Part shown: piece by piece, positions 13,169-53,598 of the stretch | Position numbering within the stretch: position 1 is the stretch's first letter | How the letters are laid out: every line of letters begins with the position of its first letter | Assembly: GCF_002954385.1 (NCBI RefSeq) | Contig: NZ_MQVY01000001.1 | Location: 38,892 to 102,891 of the forward strand | Direction: 5' to 3' | Length of the DNA: 64,000 nucleotides | From: Tenacibaculum sp. SG-28 | GTDB lineage: Bacteria; Bacteroidota; Bacteroidia; Flavobacteriales; Flavobacteriaceae | Made by a program: the position numbers and the translations under genes | The notes under the pieces: generated by a model | Databases searched by the model: none | Told to the model about the DNA's origin: nothing | Seen by the model: only the letters and a program-made list of their open reading frames with translations

Positions 13169-14920
13169 ATGCAGAAGCCTTATATTTTTACAGTATTTAT
13201 TTTTCTAGCAGCTAGCAATCTTCTTTTTTCACAAGAGGATAAGTGCTCCGTTAAAAATTTAAATCTGAATTCCAAATACCAAGATTTTGATTTGTTTTCC
13301 TATACAGACTCTACAGTCATATTTTCTTCTTCTAGGAAAGAGAGGTCGATTCGTCAGCCTAAATGGAGTGGGAATAACCAACCTTTTTTAGAATTGTATA
13401 CCGCGACGCTAGGAAAAAATGGAGAATTCTATGGCACAAAGAAGTTTTCTAAATCGATTAATACAAAATTCCATGATGCTGATGTAGAATTCACCAATGA
13501 TTTAAATACCATCTATTTTTCTAGAAGTAATTATTTTAAAAAGAAATATGTGAAAGATTCTCTTGGAAGAAATTTAATTCAGTTGTACAAAGCCGTTCGC
13601 GATACCCAGGGAAAATGGGTGGAGCAGGAAATGCCTTTTTCCAACAAAAATTACCAAACTGGGCATCCCGCATTAAATGCAGACGAAACAAAATTATATT
13701 TTGTTTCGGATATGCCGGGCGGATATGGAGAGACTGATATCTATATGGTAACTATTTATCCGGATGGCAGTTATGGAAGCCCCATTAATTTAGGACCTAA
13801 AGTAAACACCAAAGGAAAAGAAGTTTTTCCTACAGTTTGGAAAAATAACGAATTGTATTTTTCAAGTGATGGTTATGTTTCTGGCCAGGGAGGCTTGGAT
13901 ATTTTTTCGGTTTCTTTAAACGAGGATGGCCTTCCTACTGCAGAAGCAAAAAATTTGCCTCGACCATTAAACAGTTACAGTGATGACTTTTCCATCTCTT
14001 TCCGAGATACCAAAAATAGTGGGTACTTCTCTTCTAATAGACCTGGGGGTAAAGGAGATGATGATATATATTCTTTTGAATGCAGTTGTATGCAATACAT
14101 CAAAGGGATTACCTATAAAGAACCTAAACGATTAGATTCGATTCAGGCGATGGAGTATTATTTTCATGATGAAATGAAAAGAATACGTGATTCTATTCAG
14201 GGCGTCTCTACAAAAAGTTCTATTGCTATAGCGAATAATACGATCACAGAATCGAACACTAAATCTTTCATTGATAGTATATTACAGACAAAAACAGCCG
14301 GGAAAACTATATTACCGAATGTAAAAGTGAATTTATATCAAGAAAATACGGGTAAAGTAGATAGTGTTTTTAGTAATGCCAAAGGAGAGTTTTTGTTCAG
14401 CGTAAACTGTTTTGAAAAACTCGATCTCATTGCAGAAAAACCCCAATTTTCAAAAGATAGTATCCAAATTAGTTCTACCGAGCAAAATGCAGATACAATT
14501 TATGTAGCACTTACTCTTAAAGAGAAAGATATCTTAATTGAAAATAACGAACATGTCTTAAATATTGCACCCTTTTACTATGATTTTGACAGGGCGGATA
14601 TCTCTACCCAATCGGTACTTAATATCTTAACCATTGTGGATATAATGCGAAAATATCCTAGTTTACACATTGAAATTAATTCGCATACAGATAGCCGAGG
14701 AAGTGATTCGTACAATATGGAATTGTCACAGAAGCGTTCTGCTGTAATGAAACAATGGATTCTCGCTAGAGGAATAAAAGAAGATAGAATTTCGACCAAT
14801 GGATATGGGGAGTCAAGACTTACGAATAAATGTTCGGATGGAGTACCTTGTTCGGAAGACGAACATGCCATGAATCGCAGAAGTGAATTTATAATTACAA
14901 AATACACGCCACAGAAGTAA
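13169..14920 (+). CDS. OmpA family protein with PD40 repeats
   Basis: A 583-residue secreted or periplasmic protein. A signal peptide (ending LLFSQ) is followed by PD40/WD40-like propeller strands (about residues 30-310, with motifs such as LYFVSDMPGGYGETDIYMV and YFSSNRPGGKGDDDIY). Next come a variable linker, a carboxypeptidase-regulatory-like fold (about 380-445), and an OmpA domain (about 462-583). The OmpA domain has FDRADIS, NSHTDSRGSDSYN and LSQKRS, the Asp and Arg positions that bind peptidoglycan. It lacks the TPR region of PorE. It is third in the adhesin operon and probably tethers the surface complex to the cell wall. Confidence 0.87.
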   Translation: MQKPYIFTVFIFLAASNLLFSQEDKCSVKNLNLNSKYQDFDLFSYTDSTVIFSSSRKERSIRQPKWSGNNQPFLELYTATLGKNGEFYGTKKFSKSINTKFHDADVEFTNDLNTIYFSRSNYFKKKYVKDSLGRNLIQLYKAVRDTQGKWVEQEMPFSNKNYQTGHPALNADETKLYFVSDMPGGYGETDIYMVTIYPDGSYGSPINLGPKVNTKGKEVFPTVWKNNELYFSSDGYVSGQGGLDIFSVSLNEDGLPTAEAKNLPRPLNSYSDDFSISFRDTKNSGYFSSNRPGGKGDDDIYSFECSCMQYIKGITYKEPKRLDSIQAMEYYFHDEMKRIRDSIQGVSTKSSIAIANNTITESNTKSFIDSILQTKTAGKTILPNVKVNLYQENTGKVDSVFSNAKGEFLFSVNCFEKLDLIAEKPQFSKDSIQISSTEQNADTIYVALTLKEKDILIENNEHVLNIAPFYYDFDRADISTQSVLNILTIVDIMRKYPSLHIEINSHTDSRGSDSYNMELSQKRSAVMKQWILARGIKEDRISTNGYGESRLTNKCSDGVPCSEDEHAMNRRSEFIITKYTPQK

Positions 14921-14975: not shown

Positions 14976-15003
14976 TTGGTTAGGCGTAAAAAGGTTAATT
15001 TTG
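14976..15003 (+). promoter_or_regulatory. Candidate Bacteroidota promoter in the operon 3' region
   Basis: TTG at 14976-14978, 17-bp spacer, TAATTTTG at 14996-15003, matching the TAnnTTTG element with its upstream TTG. The only thing downstream is the terminator at 15051-15080, so it may drive a short RNA of about 70 nt. A chance match in A+T-rich DNA is possible. Confidence 0.35.
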
Positions 15004-15050
15004 CCTCGTATTAGGGAGATACAATATAAAAACTTTGAATTAGTTAGAAC

Positions 15051-15080
15051 AAAACACCATGGTTTGCCCATGGTGTTTTT
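15051..15080 (+). terminator. Intrinsic terminator of the adhesin operon
   Basis: A perfect 12-bp stem, AAAACACCATGG (15051-15062) and CCATGGTGTTTT (15068-15079), with loop TTTGC and a T-run. It lies 130 bp after the OmpA-gene stop and just before the convergent PhoX gene. Confidence 0.8.
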
Positions 15081-15133
15081 TATTGTATTTGCTAAGATTT
15101 ATAAAAATGATAGCAAGGGGTTCTACACTATTT

Positions 15134-18128: not shown

Positions 18129-18951
18129 TTAGAAGTCATTAAGCTTAGATTTACGAATGGAATCTTTTTGGGAATCGCTCCAACTTTTTTTGTTTTCATA
18201 GATGCCTTTGGATTCCCAGTCTCCATACATTGGATTTGGAAAAACAATAAATTTAGTGCCAAAATCATTGCGTAAACTGTCCACTATTTTATTTCTTTGC
18301 ATGGTGCTTTTAAGGTCAAATTGCGCTGAGAAATCAGATAAGTTATCCCCTAAAAACAATGCTACTTTGTAATTTTTTAAAACTTCATCCCTTCTTTTTT
18401 GTTTGGCGCTAGTTTCTTTTTTTAAAAAACATGTTTTGCATCACAATTTGGAAGTTGCCATTTTTTAAGATTGTTTATTGTTTCTTGAAGTTGTTCATTC
18501 GATCGATTGGAAATATAAAATACAGAAAAACCTAAAGAATCTGCTAGGGTAAAGAATTCTACTGCGCCAGGAAGTGCTTTTGCTTTTTCCAATTTCCCCC
18601 ATGTGATCCAATCTTTACTATTAAAATCAACATCTTTTTTTATTTGCATAGCACTGTAAGGACTATTATCTAGAACGGTTTCGTCGATATCGGTTATTAC
18701 AGCATATTTAAACCCTTTTTCAAGTTTCATTTCTTTTAACTTTAAAGCGGCAATATTAAAAGCTTGATGCACAATGCTTTATATTCTGCAGCATTTTGTT
18801 GCCATAAAACTGCTAGCGAAGTATGCTCTTTTATCTTTTGAATGTCTGCTATCTCTTTTTTTTCATTTACCGTTGGTTTTGTTTTCGAACAACCATTTAA
18901 TAGTAATATAACCACTATTAAAAGTTTAGTAATAGTATCTTTTGCGTTCAT
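18129..18951 (-). pseudogene. 5'-nucleotidase, lipoprotein e(P4) family (class C acid phosphatase), two frameshifts
   Basis: Three reading-frame pieces (18742-18951, 18422-18772, 18129-18359 extended upstream) join into one 274-residue protein if one base is added at each break. This is the usual length of lipoprotein e(P4) acid phosphatases, which dephosphorylate nucleotides outside the inner membrane. Visible are a lipobox (LLLNGC), WQQNAAEYKAL, the HAD motif DIDETVLDNS, the motif WITWGKLEKAKALPGA, SNRSNE, and GDNLSDF. Break 1 is near 18775 (AAEYKAL to HQAFNIA). Break 2 is at the run 18417-18429, where a seventh T on the coding strand gives HVFLKKETSAKQ. The active-site motifs are intact, so sequence error is as likely as true decay. 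Confidence 0.8.
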
Positions 18952-19026: not shown

Positions 19027-19461
19027 TTAGAAATAGCCTATATCCCTTGTAAGTGCTATTTTACTTTTTACAAAATTTCCTGTACCAAAAGCTATTGGGT
19101 TTCCTTCCTCATTGTACAAAATCGATTCTGCGATAAAGAGATTTTTCGATTGGTGCTTTAATTTGCCGGTTGCCCTAAGTTTTCCTTGGTTTTCTGGTTT
19201 TGTTAAATTTACGTGAAACGATGTAGTAAGAACAAATACATCTTCCACGATAGAGTTAACTGCGAAAAAAGCGGCGTCATCTAACAATTTAAAGTATACG
19301 CTGCCATGAATAGCTCCGAGTGAATGAAAGTACTTTTCAGAAATAGTTAATCCTATTTCGGCACTTTCTTTTGCGATTTTGCATGTTGTGGTATTGTAGA
19401 GCATGGCGTTTACGTTTGCTCTAAGGTACATATTTTCTAGTTTTTCAAAATGTGATGCCAT
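19027..19461 (-). CDS. PaaI-like hotdog-fold thioesterase
   Basis: A 144-residue hotdog-fold protein of the PaaI/YiiD thioesterase group, which cleaves acyl-CoA thioesters in the cytoplasm. The central helix GAIHGSVYFKLLDDAAFFAV carries the HG and the acidic residue (LDD) expected of the active site. The strands FVLTTSFHVNLTKP and LRATGKLKHQSKNLFIAES complete the fold. The natural acyl substrate cannot be told from sequence. It stands alone on the minus strand, with a long upstream gap that contains an orphan plus-strand terminator. Confidence 0.75.
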   Translation of the reverse strand: MASHFEKLENMYLRANVNAMLYNTTTCKIAKESAEIGLTISEKYFHSLGAIHGSVYFKLLDDAAFFAVNSIVEDVFVLTTSFHVNLTKPENQGKLRATGKLKHQSKNLFIAESILYNEEGNPIAFGTGNFVKSKIALTRDIGYF

Positions 19462-19667: not shown

Positions 19668-19675
19668 TAATTTTG
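19668..19675 (+). promoter_or_regulatory. Candidate TAnnTTTG promoter element
   Basis: TAATTTTG followed by a purine-rich start region. There is no clear TTG about 20 bp upstream. It is about 45 bp before a strong plus-strand terminator. Confidence 0.35.
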
Positions 19676-19681
19676 CAATAG

Positions 19682-19746
19682 GATTTTAAATTATTGCGTA
19701 TTAGTTTGAGTCCTTTTATGAACCCGTTATTTTTAACGGGTTTTTT
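19682..19746 (+). ncRNA. Candidate small RNA of about 65 nt
   Basis: Inferred from a TAnnTTTG box at 19668-19675 and a strong Rho-independent terminator at 19721-19746, with no open frame between. Both flanking genes are on the minus strand, and no plus-strand gene occurs for at least 3 kb upstream, so the terminator has no other obvious client. The 5' end is estimated 6-7 nt after the box. Family and target are unknown. Confidence 0.35.
19721..19746 (+). terminator. Intrinsic terminator without an obvious gene
   Basis: AACCCGTTA (19721-19729), four-T loop, TAACGGGTT (19734-19742), then T-run to 19746. The upstream side has no A-run, so it works on the plus strand only. Confidence 0.7.
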
Positions 19747-19771
19747 CGTCTGAAAACTCTGGTTATTATCT

Positions 19772-20721
19772 TCATCGTATACACTGCATTGGGTCTGGAA
19801 ATTTATAGCTATATTCTAAATATTGTTTACTTTTTTCATTACATACCTTTTTATAAGCTGTTGTTGCTGTATTTTTAAATTCTGGAGGAGTAAGGCCCAA
19901 GTTTTTGCTAGCCAAGCGGTAAAATTTTTCCCGTAAGGGATGTTTGTCTGCACAGCCATTTATGATTTCTCCCCAAATATTTTTATGAAGTATCGCTTGA
20001 ATTAATCCAATGCAGTCGTCTCTGTGAATAAGGTTAACAGGAGCCATTGCATTGTCTAGGTTTTTTTATTTGCCAAAAATCGACCTGGTTGCCGATCATT
20101 TCCAATAAGGCCTGCAAAACGTACTATTGTTAGTCGTTCGCTAAAGGCTTTAGAGAGGATATTTTCTACTGCAAGAATAGCTTTTCCAGACTGTTTTTTA
20201 GGAGTACAAATCAAGTTCTCATCTACCCAAGAGTTTGTGTTGGGATATACGGAGGTAGAACTAATGAAAATTACCTTCTGCGTATTGTTTATAAATGGCA
20301 AAACACTCTCAATTTGCCTCTGGTATAGCGCTACTATATTCTCAGATCTCTTTGGAGGAAAGCTAATAATTATACTTTCACTGTCTTTTAAAAATAAGGC
20401 TAAAGAATCGTTTAAATCTTCATTTCCTAAGGCAAATGTAAAAGGTATTATTCCGTTATTTTTAAATAGAATTTCTTTGGATTTTGATGTAGAAGAGCCT
20501 TTAACTTTATATCCCGCACTGACCAGAGATTTCGCAAGTGGAAAACCAAGCCATCCACAGCCTAATATGCTTATTTGTTTATTTCCCAATTTACCATTTT
20601 TTATGTCGCTGTTAACTGTTAGTAGAAACAGCCTGTCTATTTTCTTTATTATACGTGGTATTATCAAAGATACGTTAGGATTTATTAAATCAAACAGATG
20701 GTTGGTCTTTTTTTGTGACAA
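19772..20721 (-). CDS. NAD-dependent epimerase/dehydratase family protein (YeeZ-like), one frameshift
   Basis: An SDR-superfamily protein of up to 316 residues. The Rossmann motif ISILGCGWLGFPLAKSL binds NAD(P). FISSTSVYPNTNSWVDE carries the Ser and Tyr of the extended-SDR active site, and IVRFAGLIGNDRQPGRFLA is typical of YeeZ-like members. The frame stops at 20056 and resumes at 20047. One more base in the T(7) run at 20061-20067 restores GRFLANKKNLDNAMAPVNLIH. The residues before NKQISILG (starting MSQKKTN) do not look like SDR sequence, so the true start may be about 40 codons downstream, for example at a TTG. The substrate is unknown. Confidence 0.75.
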
Positions 20722-32446: not shown

Positions 32447-35013
32447 GAACTGTCTTCCAATAATAAAATGTGTTTGCCAGCCAGATTTTTGAGGGTTAAT
32501 TGTATTTTCAAGACCAGGTAACGGATCAAAGCCATGAGCAAAGTCGATACCTAGTAAACCAAAAGCGGGCATAAAAATACGAACCCCGAGTCCTGCCGAA
32601 CGTTTTAACTTAAACGGATTAAAATCGCTAAAATTGTCATAAGAGTTACCAGCTTCTAAAAACCCTAATGTATAGATAGAAGCAGATGGTTTATCGGTTA
32701 TGGAGTAGCGTAATTCTAACTGAAACTTATTGTAAATTGCACCTCCGTCAATATCACTAAGACTATTGTTTTCATATCCTCTTAAACCTACTACCTCTCT
32801 ACCATCTAATTGTCCTTGCGCAATCCCATCTCCACCAACAAAATATCTTTCAACGGGGGTAAGACCTAATTCGCTATTGTAATATCCTAAGAAACCAATT
32901 TCAAAGTTAGACATTAGTACTAATTTTTTTGCTAATTCAGTATACCATTTTCCTTTGGCGGATATTTTATAATATTCTAGCCATTTGTATTTGTCGGCAA
33001 ATAATCTTGTTCCTCCGGTGATCCTGGGTATGCATCATCAGGTCTTGAATAATCTTTATTGTTCAAGAGAGAGTATGGTATTGTAGCTTTGGCGCGTAGC
33101 GTAAAATCCGATCCATAGGTGGGGAATATCAAACCAGGACCAGCATCTTTTCTATTTAACGCTATGGTATACGCTAAATTATTTAAGTCACCTTGGCTTA
33201 ATATGTCATTTGATGAACCCACGCGATACCCATAGTTGTTTAATTCAATTCGTTGGAAACTTATTGATTGTGATAACGAAAAATAATCATCCGGCCAACG
33301 CAATCGTTTACCAAGCCCTATTTGTGCACCAATAATACCTAAATTTTCATCTCTTATAACATTATTGGTTTGAAAATCAAAGCGATACTGATTCGAGTAA
33401 TATACAGAGAAAGACAAGGATTGTGGCTTTCTTCCACCTAACCAAGGTTCTGTAAAGGAAAAACTATAGGTGCTGTAGGTTCTACTAGCTTGCAGACGAA
33501 GTGATAAACTTTGTCCATCTCCCATGGGAAGCGGTTTGTAAGCTTCCTTATTGAATAAGTTTCTTACAGAAAAATTGTTAAAAGAAAGACCAAGTGTTCC
33601 GATAAAAGATCCTCCACCGTATCCACCTTGTAATTCTATTTGACTTCCACCTTTTTCTACTACAGAGAATTCTATGTCGGTAGTTTTGTCTTGATAGTTT
33701 GGGTTAACATCTGGAGTAACATTCGCGTCAAAAAAGCCCAATTGCCCTATTTCTCGGATCGATCGGATGATGTTTTGACGACTAAATAAATCTCCTGGCT
33801 TTACTCGCAATTCTCTGTATATTACATGGTCGTTTGTTTTATCATTACCAACCACAGTTACTTTTTTAATAGTTGCCTGCTCGTCTTCACGAATTCTAAT
33901 TTCTAAGGTAATCGAATCGTTTTCAACCTTGGTTTCTATTGGGTTGATTTGTGAAAATAAATAACCGTTGTTTTGGTAAAAACTTTGTAAATCTTGTGAG
34001 GTCGGTGTACCATCTCCAGAAATTCGTTCTTTGAGTACTTTTCCGTTGTAGACGTCTCCTTTTTCAATGCGTAACAAACTTTGAAGTTGTTTGTCTGTAT
34101 AATTTTTGTTTCCAACAAACAATATATCTCCAAATCTGTACTGACGTCCTTCCTCTAGTCTAATACTTAAATTGATGGTGTTATCATTATTCCACGTTAC
34201 ATTATCGGATAATATTCTTGCATCTCTATACCCATTTTCACTATACTTTTCTAAAATTGCCTCCAAGTCTTCCTTGTAGTCTTCTTGTATATATTTAGAA
34301 CTCTTCCAAAAACGACCTAACATTTTTTGTTTGGTGTTTTTCATGGCAGATCGAAGGGTTCTGTCAGACAATGCTTCATTCCCTTCAAAATTTATTTCTC
34401 TAATTTTTATTCGATTCCCGCGATCGATAAAAATACTCATACTTACAGTATTAACATCTGAGCTATCTTTTTTAGTATCTAGGTTTACTTTTGTTTTGAG
34501 AAATCCTTTATCGGTATATTTTTTGGTTATGTAGTTTTTGGTGGTTACAATAAGATTTTCTGTAACCATCATTCCTTTTTTTAGTTCTGTCTCTTTTAGA
34601 ATTTCTTTTTTCTTCGATTTACTTATTCCTGAGATTGTCACATCGGTAAGCTGTGGAAGTTCTAAAACATCAAATTGAAGATATACTGTTTCGCCATCTA
34701 ATTTTGAAATGTAAACATCTACTTGGCTGAACTGTTTACTTTCATATAATTTCTTTATGGCGCTAGTAAGTTTATCTCCAGGAAGTTTAATGGCTTGTCC
34801 GTTGATAAGGCCGGTGTATACTCTAACAGTTTCTTCGCTAAATTTTTGAAGACCGGTAACCGTTATACCTCCCAATATATAATCCTTTCCTTTTTCGTAT
34901 TGGATAACATTGTTGTTTACAGCAGTAGTATCTTTAACTGTTTCTTGTGCTTGCGTATTTCCTATAGTTAAGGCACTAACTAGTAGTACTACTAAAAATG
35001 AAATCTTATTCAT
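32444..35013 (-). CDS. bamA: Outer membrane protein assembly factor BamA, one frameshift
   Basis: BamA inserts beta-barrel proteins into the outer membrane. Repaired length is 856 residues, normal for Bacteroidota. I start at the second Met (ATG 35013, MNKISF, signal peptide ending NTQAQ), overlapping uppS by 8 bp. Five POTRA domains (about 50-450) are followed by a 16-strand barrel with the loop-6 motif VVGLRGYENN and a C-terminal Phe (IIGRQF). The frame breaks near 33000: one more T in TTT on the coding strand gives EEQDYFADKYKWLEYYKIS. Loss of BamA is lethal in known bacteria, so the break is probably sequence error. Confidence 0.92.
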
Positions 35014-49155: not shown

Positions 49156-49496
49156 TGGGTGTAGTACATAAATCAGAAATTACATTTACGGTAGAATTAG
49201 ACGAAAATAAAGTTCCAGAATACATAGCTTGGAATGCAGAAGATGGAGGCGTACACAATGAGCCCTCTAAAGCTATTATGTTATCGGTTTGGGACCATAA
49301 GAAAAAAGATACTTTGCGAATGGATTTATGGACCAAAGACATGCCTGTTGATGAAATGAAACAGTTTTTTCATCAAACTTTGGTCTCTATGGCAAATACG
49401 TTCGAAAGGGCAACCGACGATCAAAAAATGAGTGCGACCATGCGCGATTTTTGTGATTATTTTGCAGAGAAATTGGAGCTTATTAATAAAAACTAA
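49155..49496 (+). CDS. gldC: Gliding motility protein GldC
   Basis: A 113-residue cytoplasmic or membrane-associated protein whose gene always accompanies gldB. HKSEITFTVELDENKVPEYIAWNAEDGG, ALMLSVWDHKKKDTLRMDLWTKDMPVDEMK-like segments and FCDYFAEKLELI match GldC. Start is fixed by overlap with the gldB stop. A terminator follows, so gldBC is a closed two-gene unit. Confidence 0.94.
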   Translation: MGVVHKSEITFTVELDENKVPEYIAWNAEDGGVHNEPSKAIMLSVWDHKKKDTLRMDLWTKDMPVDEMKQFFHQTLVSMANTFERATDDQKMSATMRDFCDYFAEKLELINKN

Positions 49497-53267: not shown

Positions 53268-53536
53268 TTATTTTCTAATACCTAGTTCTTTAATAATCGC
53301 ACGATATCTGCTGATATCTTTCTTCTTTAAATAGTCTAGTAACTTCTACGTTTACCTACCATTTTAACAAGCGAACGCTCCGTGTTAAAATCTTTACGAT
53401 TTTTCTTTAAGTGCTCTGTTAAGTGGTTTATTCTAAAAGTGAATAAGGCGATTTGTCCTTCTGCTGTCCCAGTATCGTTATTTCCTTTACCGTGTTTAGC
53501 AAAAATTTCTTGTTTTACTTCTTTTGTTAAATACAT
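53268..53536 (-). CDS. rpsO: 30S ribosomal protein S15, one frameshift
   Basis: S15 binds 16S rRNA early in small-subunit assembly. The frame stops after RSLVKMVGKRRSY, but one extra T at the TT run 53341-53342 (coding strand) gives GKRRSLLDYLKKKDISRYRA and ends at 53268 with ELGIRK. The repaired length is 89 residues, exactly the family norm. GNNDTGTAEGQIALFTFRINHLTEHL matches S15 throughout. A null mutation in this gene is not credible in a growing cell, so the break is most likely a sequence error. Confidence 0.94.
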
Positions 53537-53590
53537 GCCAATATTATTTAAATGATTATTATGTATACAATGCTATTTACATTGAAGGTG

Positions 53591-53598
53591 CAAATATA
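53591..53598 (-). promoter_or_regulatory. Candidate promoter of rpsO
   Basis: CAAATATA on the plus strand reads TATATTTG (TAnnTTTG) on the minus strand, followed by CACC, about 55 bp before the start codon. Confidence 0.45.

Follow-up and report, generated by a model that had tools for sequence, protein, structure and literature searches.

The intergenic site at 19668-19746 of the window (the whole 64,000-nucleotide stretch of Tenacibaculum sp. SG-28 DNA that was analyzed, corresponding to bases 38,892-102,891 of contig C1 in a genome of 2.80 Mb and 17 contigs) on balance appears to hold a small RNA gene. Its predicted product, a sigma-A-driven, trans-acting sRNA of 67 nt, would block SusC translation by pairing with the start codon of the mRNA. 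Judged from the sequence, it is quite likely that a discrete transcript is made from this site and that the RNA is real.

In the mechanism that we propose, RNA polymerase carrying the primary sigma factor would start at 19680 and end at the terminator, yielding a two-hairpin RNA of 67 nt. Its first hairpin would use the 8-nt loop to contact the susC mRNA at the start codon and the bases immediately before it, and pairing could then spread along the 3' arm, opening the hairpin and giving 21 continuous base pairs over positions -17 to +4. The start codon would be kept from ribosomes and less SusC made, by analogy with the way in which FopS of Bacteroides acts on susC. A probable paralogue of this RNA gene has the same type of promoter box and the same hairpin arms; its loop differs, and it therefore probably aims at another mRNA.

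The features of the site are as follows:

19027-19461, minus strand: 4HBT hotdog-fold thioesterase (PF03061, 5.4e-08; TIGR00369, 7.1e-11)
19668-19675, plus strand: TAATTTTG, sigma-A type -7 box (TAnnTTTG), from the sequence, with consensus and -12/-5 position as given in passages of PMC9723704
19680-19746, plus strand: predicted small RNA, 67 nt (+1 from the box position, end at the T-run)
19680-19714, plus strand: 5' hairpin starting at the predicted +1 (-8.6 kcal/mol, z -3.15; arms kept in the paralogue)
19691-19711, plus strand: proposed seed, able to form 21 contiguous pairs with the susC mRNA (-17 to +4), perfect over 19693-19709
19694-19701, plus strand: apical loop UUGCGUAU, where pairing is proposed to nucleate; it is unpaired in the MFE fold and complementary to AUACGCAA
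19720-19746, plus strand: intrinsic terminator (stem 19720-19743, T-run 19741-19746)
19772-20721, minus strand: NAD(P)-binding oxidoreductase-like gene in two frames (20056-20721 and 19772-20047), its N-terminal part matching Pfam only below threshold and its C-terminal part not at all

Promoter, terminator, and predicted fold

The original prediction described a promoter box and a plus-strand-only terminator in a gap between minus-strand genes, and both were found as described, flanked by the thioesterase gene on one side and the oxidoreductase gene on the other. The terminator stem, with 10 pairs and a 4-nt loop, starts 44 nt after the TAATTTTG box, and the minus strand of the stem lacks a T-run. 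Equally correct was the claim that no plus-strand gene ends near upstream: no plus-strand ORF of at least 30 amino acids lies between 19217 and 19822, and none ends within 450 nt upstream. The site has two of the properties of an independent intergenic sRNA gene, a sigma-A type promoter box of its own and an intrinsic terminator of its own that is not the end of an upstream gene. By eye, no clear -33 element was seen upstream of the box. Since the sigma-A box of F. psychrophilum sits at -12 to -5 (passages of PMC9723704), the predicted +1 is 19680, which is also the first paired base of the 5' hairpin, a hairpin that had been folded before we met the box-spacing rule.

By itself, such a pair is weak evidence, because boxes are common (TAnnTTTG occurs 54 times on the plus strand and 50 times on the minus strand of the window, 104 times in total) and 3 of the 9 strong terminator-like sites in the window have one 20 to 160 nt upstream. 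A filtered scan of 916,266 bases of the genome returned three orphan-like box-terminator pairs outside same-strand coding sequence; for two of these, the 19668-19746 site among them, the 150 nt upstream are free of any same-strand ORF. Another pair in the window (14996/15051; 14996-15085, plus strand) consists of TAATTTTG and a two-way terminator after a gene of the OmpA type (named by eye) that ends at 14920, and might represent a 3'-UTR RNA; as a susC-directed RNA it was rejected, as its 5' part ranks susC just 168th among 823 start regions.

The stability of the fold is more telling. The RNA at 19680-19750 folds at -22.1 kcal/mol, compared with -8.65 ± 2.38 in shuffled sequences (z -5.65; none of 200 as good), and consists of two hairpins, the 5' hairpin and the terminator. 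For the 5' hairpin alone, 1 of 200 shuffles was as good. An Rfam scan at gathering thresholds gave no match at the site. Permissive scanning returned weak minus-strand matches below gathering, to STnc430 (31.3 bits, against a gathering threshold of 47) and SpF10 over the stem and to sau-59 elsewhere in the gap, all of which we discarded. Far from the site, at 53534-53598 on the minus strand, the window holds an S15-Flavobacteria ribosomal leader (RF03161, 79 bits), a feature that makes this DNA look like that of a member of the Flavobacteriaceae. A peptide reading was rejected by eye: the in-frame ORF would begin with TTG (19694) or ATG (19719), and its stop codon, TGA at 19751-19753, lies beyond the terminator. 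Antisense control of the thioesterase is likewise unsupported, as no minus-strand TAnnTTTG is present in the gap.

Complementarity to the start of a susC gene

A BLAST search with a 126-base query returned a 17-nt exact antisense match on contig C4, which turned out to be the translation start of a gene on the other strand, with a start region reading ...AATTCAAACTAATACGCAATGAAAACA. Five non-self matches, this one included, reached an E value of 0.0881 or lower, so that a 17-mer at E 0.088 is not rare. The matched gene encodes a SusC/RagA-family TonB-linked protein of 1,085 amino acids with plug and barrel domains (TIGR04056, 1.7e-189); it is followed by a SusD-like gene, with ribosomal-protein genes and fusA nearby (named by eye).

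The complement of the loop, AUACGCAA, extends up to and into the susC AUG, and nucleotides 12 to 32 of the RNA, comprising the hairpin loop plus 3' arm, are predicted to pair without interruption with susC positions -17 to +4 (21 bp, two of them G-U, with 17 nt perfect). Seven further pairs are possible between RNA nucleotides 2 to 8 and the susC coding region. The duplex of RNA nucleotides 1 to 37 with the susC start has a predicted energy of -30.1 kcal/mol and ranks first both among 530 and among 823 start regions, with the next at -22.7. Among 58,122 shuffled start regions and 54,644 shuffled hairpins (112,766 controls together), not one reached this value; the closest in the two sets were -29.4 and -29.7. 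When the whole RNA including its terminator was used, 1 of 7,862 shuffled start regions equaled or passed the susC value. Cofolding of the RNA with the susC start gave -46.2, compared with -22.1 and -0.4 for the two apart.

Extrapolation of the tail suggests a chance of roughly 5e-6 per gene, or an expectation near 0.01 for some 2,500 genes. Such figures flatter the match somewhat, because it was found after looking at several candidates; for each of the two key results, target and paralogue, we put the chance expectation at about 0.01 to 0.02 after several looks.

A probable paralogue on contig C6

A covariance model built from the single sequence (R1) gave, as its third match in the genome itself, a second locus of the same kind:

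C6, about 49229-49312: probable paralogue (L154/L194), R1 match at C6:49240-49312 with E 0.19

This locus carries a TACTTTTG box at nearly the same distance as TAATTTTG in the 19668-19746 site, and the GATTTTAA...TAGTTTGAnTCCTTT hairpin arms are common to both RNAs, while the loop and the terminator are different. Taken as a whole, the paralogue RNA folds into the same two-hairpin form (z -5.56); its 5' hairpin taken alone is not significant (z -1.66, with 15 of 200 shuffles as good). It is flanked by minus-strand genes for a thioredoxin-like and an aquaporin-type protein and sits within a 104-aa ORF that has no Pfam match at E 1 and that we judged to be spurious. The overlap with this probably spurious ORF explains why the paralogue was missed by the orphan-pair filter. 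Just upstream of the TACTTTTG box lies a palindrome, AGATGTGAATACATCT (L194, 7212-7227), a possible operator.

Anchored on the box, the similarity of the paralogue scores 25.25. None of 152 other boxes of the same genome exceeds 13.5, and in a set of 1,532 boxes from 916 kb the runner-up scores 19.0. Random boxes reached 25.25 in 2 of 600,000 cases under an intergenic model and in 0 of 600,000 under a window model. With approximately 4,500 boxes per genome, a number scaled from the window, about 0.015 chance matches as good as the paralogue would be expected. The shared 15-mer has 32 near-copies in the genome, with 34 in a reversed control. Inspection of 30 of the 32 showed a box at -34/-33 for the two exact copies alone, and at -56 for one other. 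In a structure-fitted alignment of the pair, 10 of 13 pairs of helix 1 are unchanged, none is changed on both sides, and the paralogue lacks the 2 outer ones. Helix 2, the terminator, shows six two-sided changes.

None of 823 start regions stands out as a partner of the paralogue (best, -20.5), which pairs only weakly with the susC start (-14.5). On the same contig (L295, 14025-14100; C6 about 34025-34100, plus strand), another orphan box-terminator pair lies between two minus-strand ORFs. Here, too, a strong 5' hairpin (ACTTAGGAGACGTCCTAAGT) begins at the predicted +1; the architecture is the same, and no sequence relation was seen.

Conservation across species

Covariance searches in relatives, the check proposed with the original prediction, did not bear it out: no recognizable homologue was found in other species among the 166 genomes of the genus and 397 of the family searched, the large searches having used stricter filters, which lose weak matches. 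R1 matched at E 1 or better in 43 of 146 genus genomes, at E 0.02 or better in 6 of 166, and at E 0.003 or better in 6 of the 397 family genomes, the latter two counts including the genome itself. A second model, R2 (R1 plus the paralogue), matched 92 of the 166 genus genomes at E 0.5 or better; its best match outside the genome scored 39.0 bits, compared with 92.2 and 85.8 bits for the two own copies, of which the 92.2 bits of the paralogue is a circular value, as R2 was built with it.

The cross-species matches of both models that were inspected, a subset, look by eye like ordinary terminators, and one follows a tRNA. Of 31 loci inspected by eye, 29 of which came from R2, none combined a box with the shared arms and a terminator; two of the 31 lacked the match sequence because they lie at contig ends. 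One locus has a box-like string 12 nt before its match (L202) and another has one inside the match (L220). An exact pattern drawn from the two own copies recovered, in 166 genomes, the two own sites and one other (G132), with one control site; we rejected the G132 match, which has no TAnnTTTG box and is of the same kind as the control match. A second exact pattern recovered nothing but these own sites, against 2 sites in the control. Viral contigs gave no match. Beyond the stem, then, conservation as seen in the sequences amounts only to one probable paralogue in the same genome, with nothing wider found in the genomes searched.

Three other observations came from these searches. A further R1 match in the genome itself (L153) was weak, lacked a box, and was set aside. 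At L155, about 1501-1556 (C3:309896-309951, minus strand), a weak R1 match, TATATTTG stands directly 5' of a strong GC-rich hairpin and T-run, and the shared arms are absent. In three genus genomes (L125, L127, and L131, about 1501-1566), the sequence leading into a terminator is alike (AAAGTTATCTA...ACTTTAAGTT); this might be the conserved 3' end of a gene.

Flanking genes and alternative explanations

In ten genus loci (L160-L169; 52 to 62% identity), both parts of the oxidoreductase gene are in one frame, with stops inside the match in two of them; the split seen here may reflect either decay or a mistake in the assembly around the T-run (about 20061-20067). The two flanking genes were never found together in the congener stretches examined. 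An acid-phosphatase-B gene at 18129-18951 (minus strand) likewise seems to be in pieces (PF03767 for 18422-18772; 18742-18951 and 18129-18359 assigned by eye), possibly because of small indel errors in the assembly.

Such broken-looking genes nearby invite the thought that rearrangement left behind a leader, decayed or orphaned, that once was a 5' attenuator or 3'-UTR terminator and has no present role. The thioesterase has relatives in just 4 of 146 genus genomes, its own included, no thioesterase relative was found in the stretches examined around 21 oxidoreductase relatives, and the RNA is not conserved across the species searched, all of which would fit. Nevertheless, the site still has an intact box, +1, hairpin, and terminator, no Rfam leader matches it at gathering, and the second copy, which matches, stands in a different setting and has an unrelated terminator, so we regard this origin as improbable. 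Less probable still is a random box near a terminator that merely shields the oxidoreductase 3' end from plus-strand transcription, with no defined RNA: boxes are indeed common near strong terminator-like sites, but the fold z-score, the hairpin exactly at +1, the paralogue, and the fact that filtering left just two clean orphan pairs in 916 kb all argue against it.

The most serious competitor accepts the stand-alone RNA and treats the SusC match as chance, the RNA having other targets or another function, e.g., as a sponge or a protein-binding RNA. The transcription signals hold without the target, the target is not shared by the paralogue, and its extrapolated genome-wide expectation, near 0.01, was obtained after several looks. 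On the other hand, the match falls exactly on a start codon and uses the entire loop, and the gene hit is a susC, the very class targeted by the FopS sRNAs of Bacteroides (passages of PMC11697453). We therefore consider a chance match possible but rather unlikely and continue to prefer the sRNA directed at susC. The original view that a stand-alone RNA of about 65 nt is the simplest explanation still holds; it has gained from the 5' hairpin at the predicted +1, the paralogue, and the SusC complementarity, and has lost the expected cross-species conservation; neither the 5' hairpin nor any function had been part of it.

Comparison with known sRNAs

MicA and RybB are short enterobacterial sRNAs, Hfq dependent and driven by sigma-E, that block the translation starts of major outer-membrane proteins. 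The RNA starting at 19680 resembles them as a short sRNA with a predicted block of the translation start of an outer-membrane protein. A closer parallel is found in Bacteroides thetaiotaomicron, where FopS sRNAs repress translation of SusC homologues and RbpB acts against this; the RbpB-associated FopS family (with GibS) is described, in the passages of PMC11697453 concerned, as having sigma-ABfr promoters, 14 copies, a single-stranded 5' seed, and a terminator hairpin. Like FopS, our candidate is predicted, in silico, to have a sigma-A type promoter, to end in a terminator hairpin, and to pair beside the start codon in an mRNA of the SusC family. Unlike in those FopS passages, the seed is not a single-stranded 5' stretch before the terminator hairpin but lies in the loop and arm of a predicted hairpin, and two copies were found, i.e., one probable paralogue compared with the 14 FopS copies (PMC11697453). 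Scans with Rfam release 15, in which FopS may be absent, gave no FopS match. Given the seed within a hairpin and the lack of any sequence or Rfam relation shown, we do not class the 19680 RNA as a FopS. A scan for RRM-like motifs in 916 kb, about one third of the genome, returned two matches in frames of 57 and 21 amino acids, neither of them convincing.

Within the family, Rfp18 of Flavobacterium psychrophilum, an sRNA studied with a deletion mutant, is comparable as an independent Flavobacteriaceae sRNA with a strong fold and proposed mRNA pairing; as described in passages of PMC9723704, it differs from the 19680 RNA in being widely conserved in its genus, pairing via its third stem-loop, and affecting metalloprotease mRNAs. 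For a haem receptor, an sRNA has been suggested, and no more than that, in passages of PMC9331221.

Implications

Control of SusC importers by sRNA has been described in gut Bacteroides (passages of PMC11697453), and the Flavobacteriaceae include degraders of algal polysaccharides (PMC6298971); among the best matches of our literature searches, there was no Flavobacteriaceae sRNA paired to susC. It is tempting, if doubtful, to go further and see in the two copies a small Flavobacteriaceae sRNA family in which the two hairpin arms stay fixed and the loop can be exchanged, every loop addressing the start codon of a different outer-membrane importer; its loop-first control of SusC translation would have arisen independently of FopS. 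With a named target site and a paralogue at hand, the SusC prediction is directly testable. If true, it would mean that translational control of SusC by short sRNAs extends to another class of bacteria, with a different RNA architecture.
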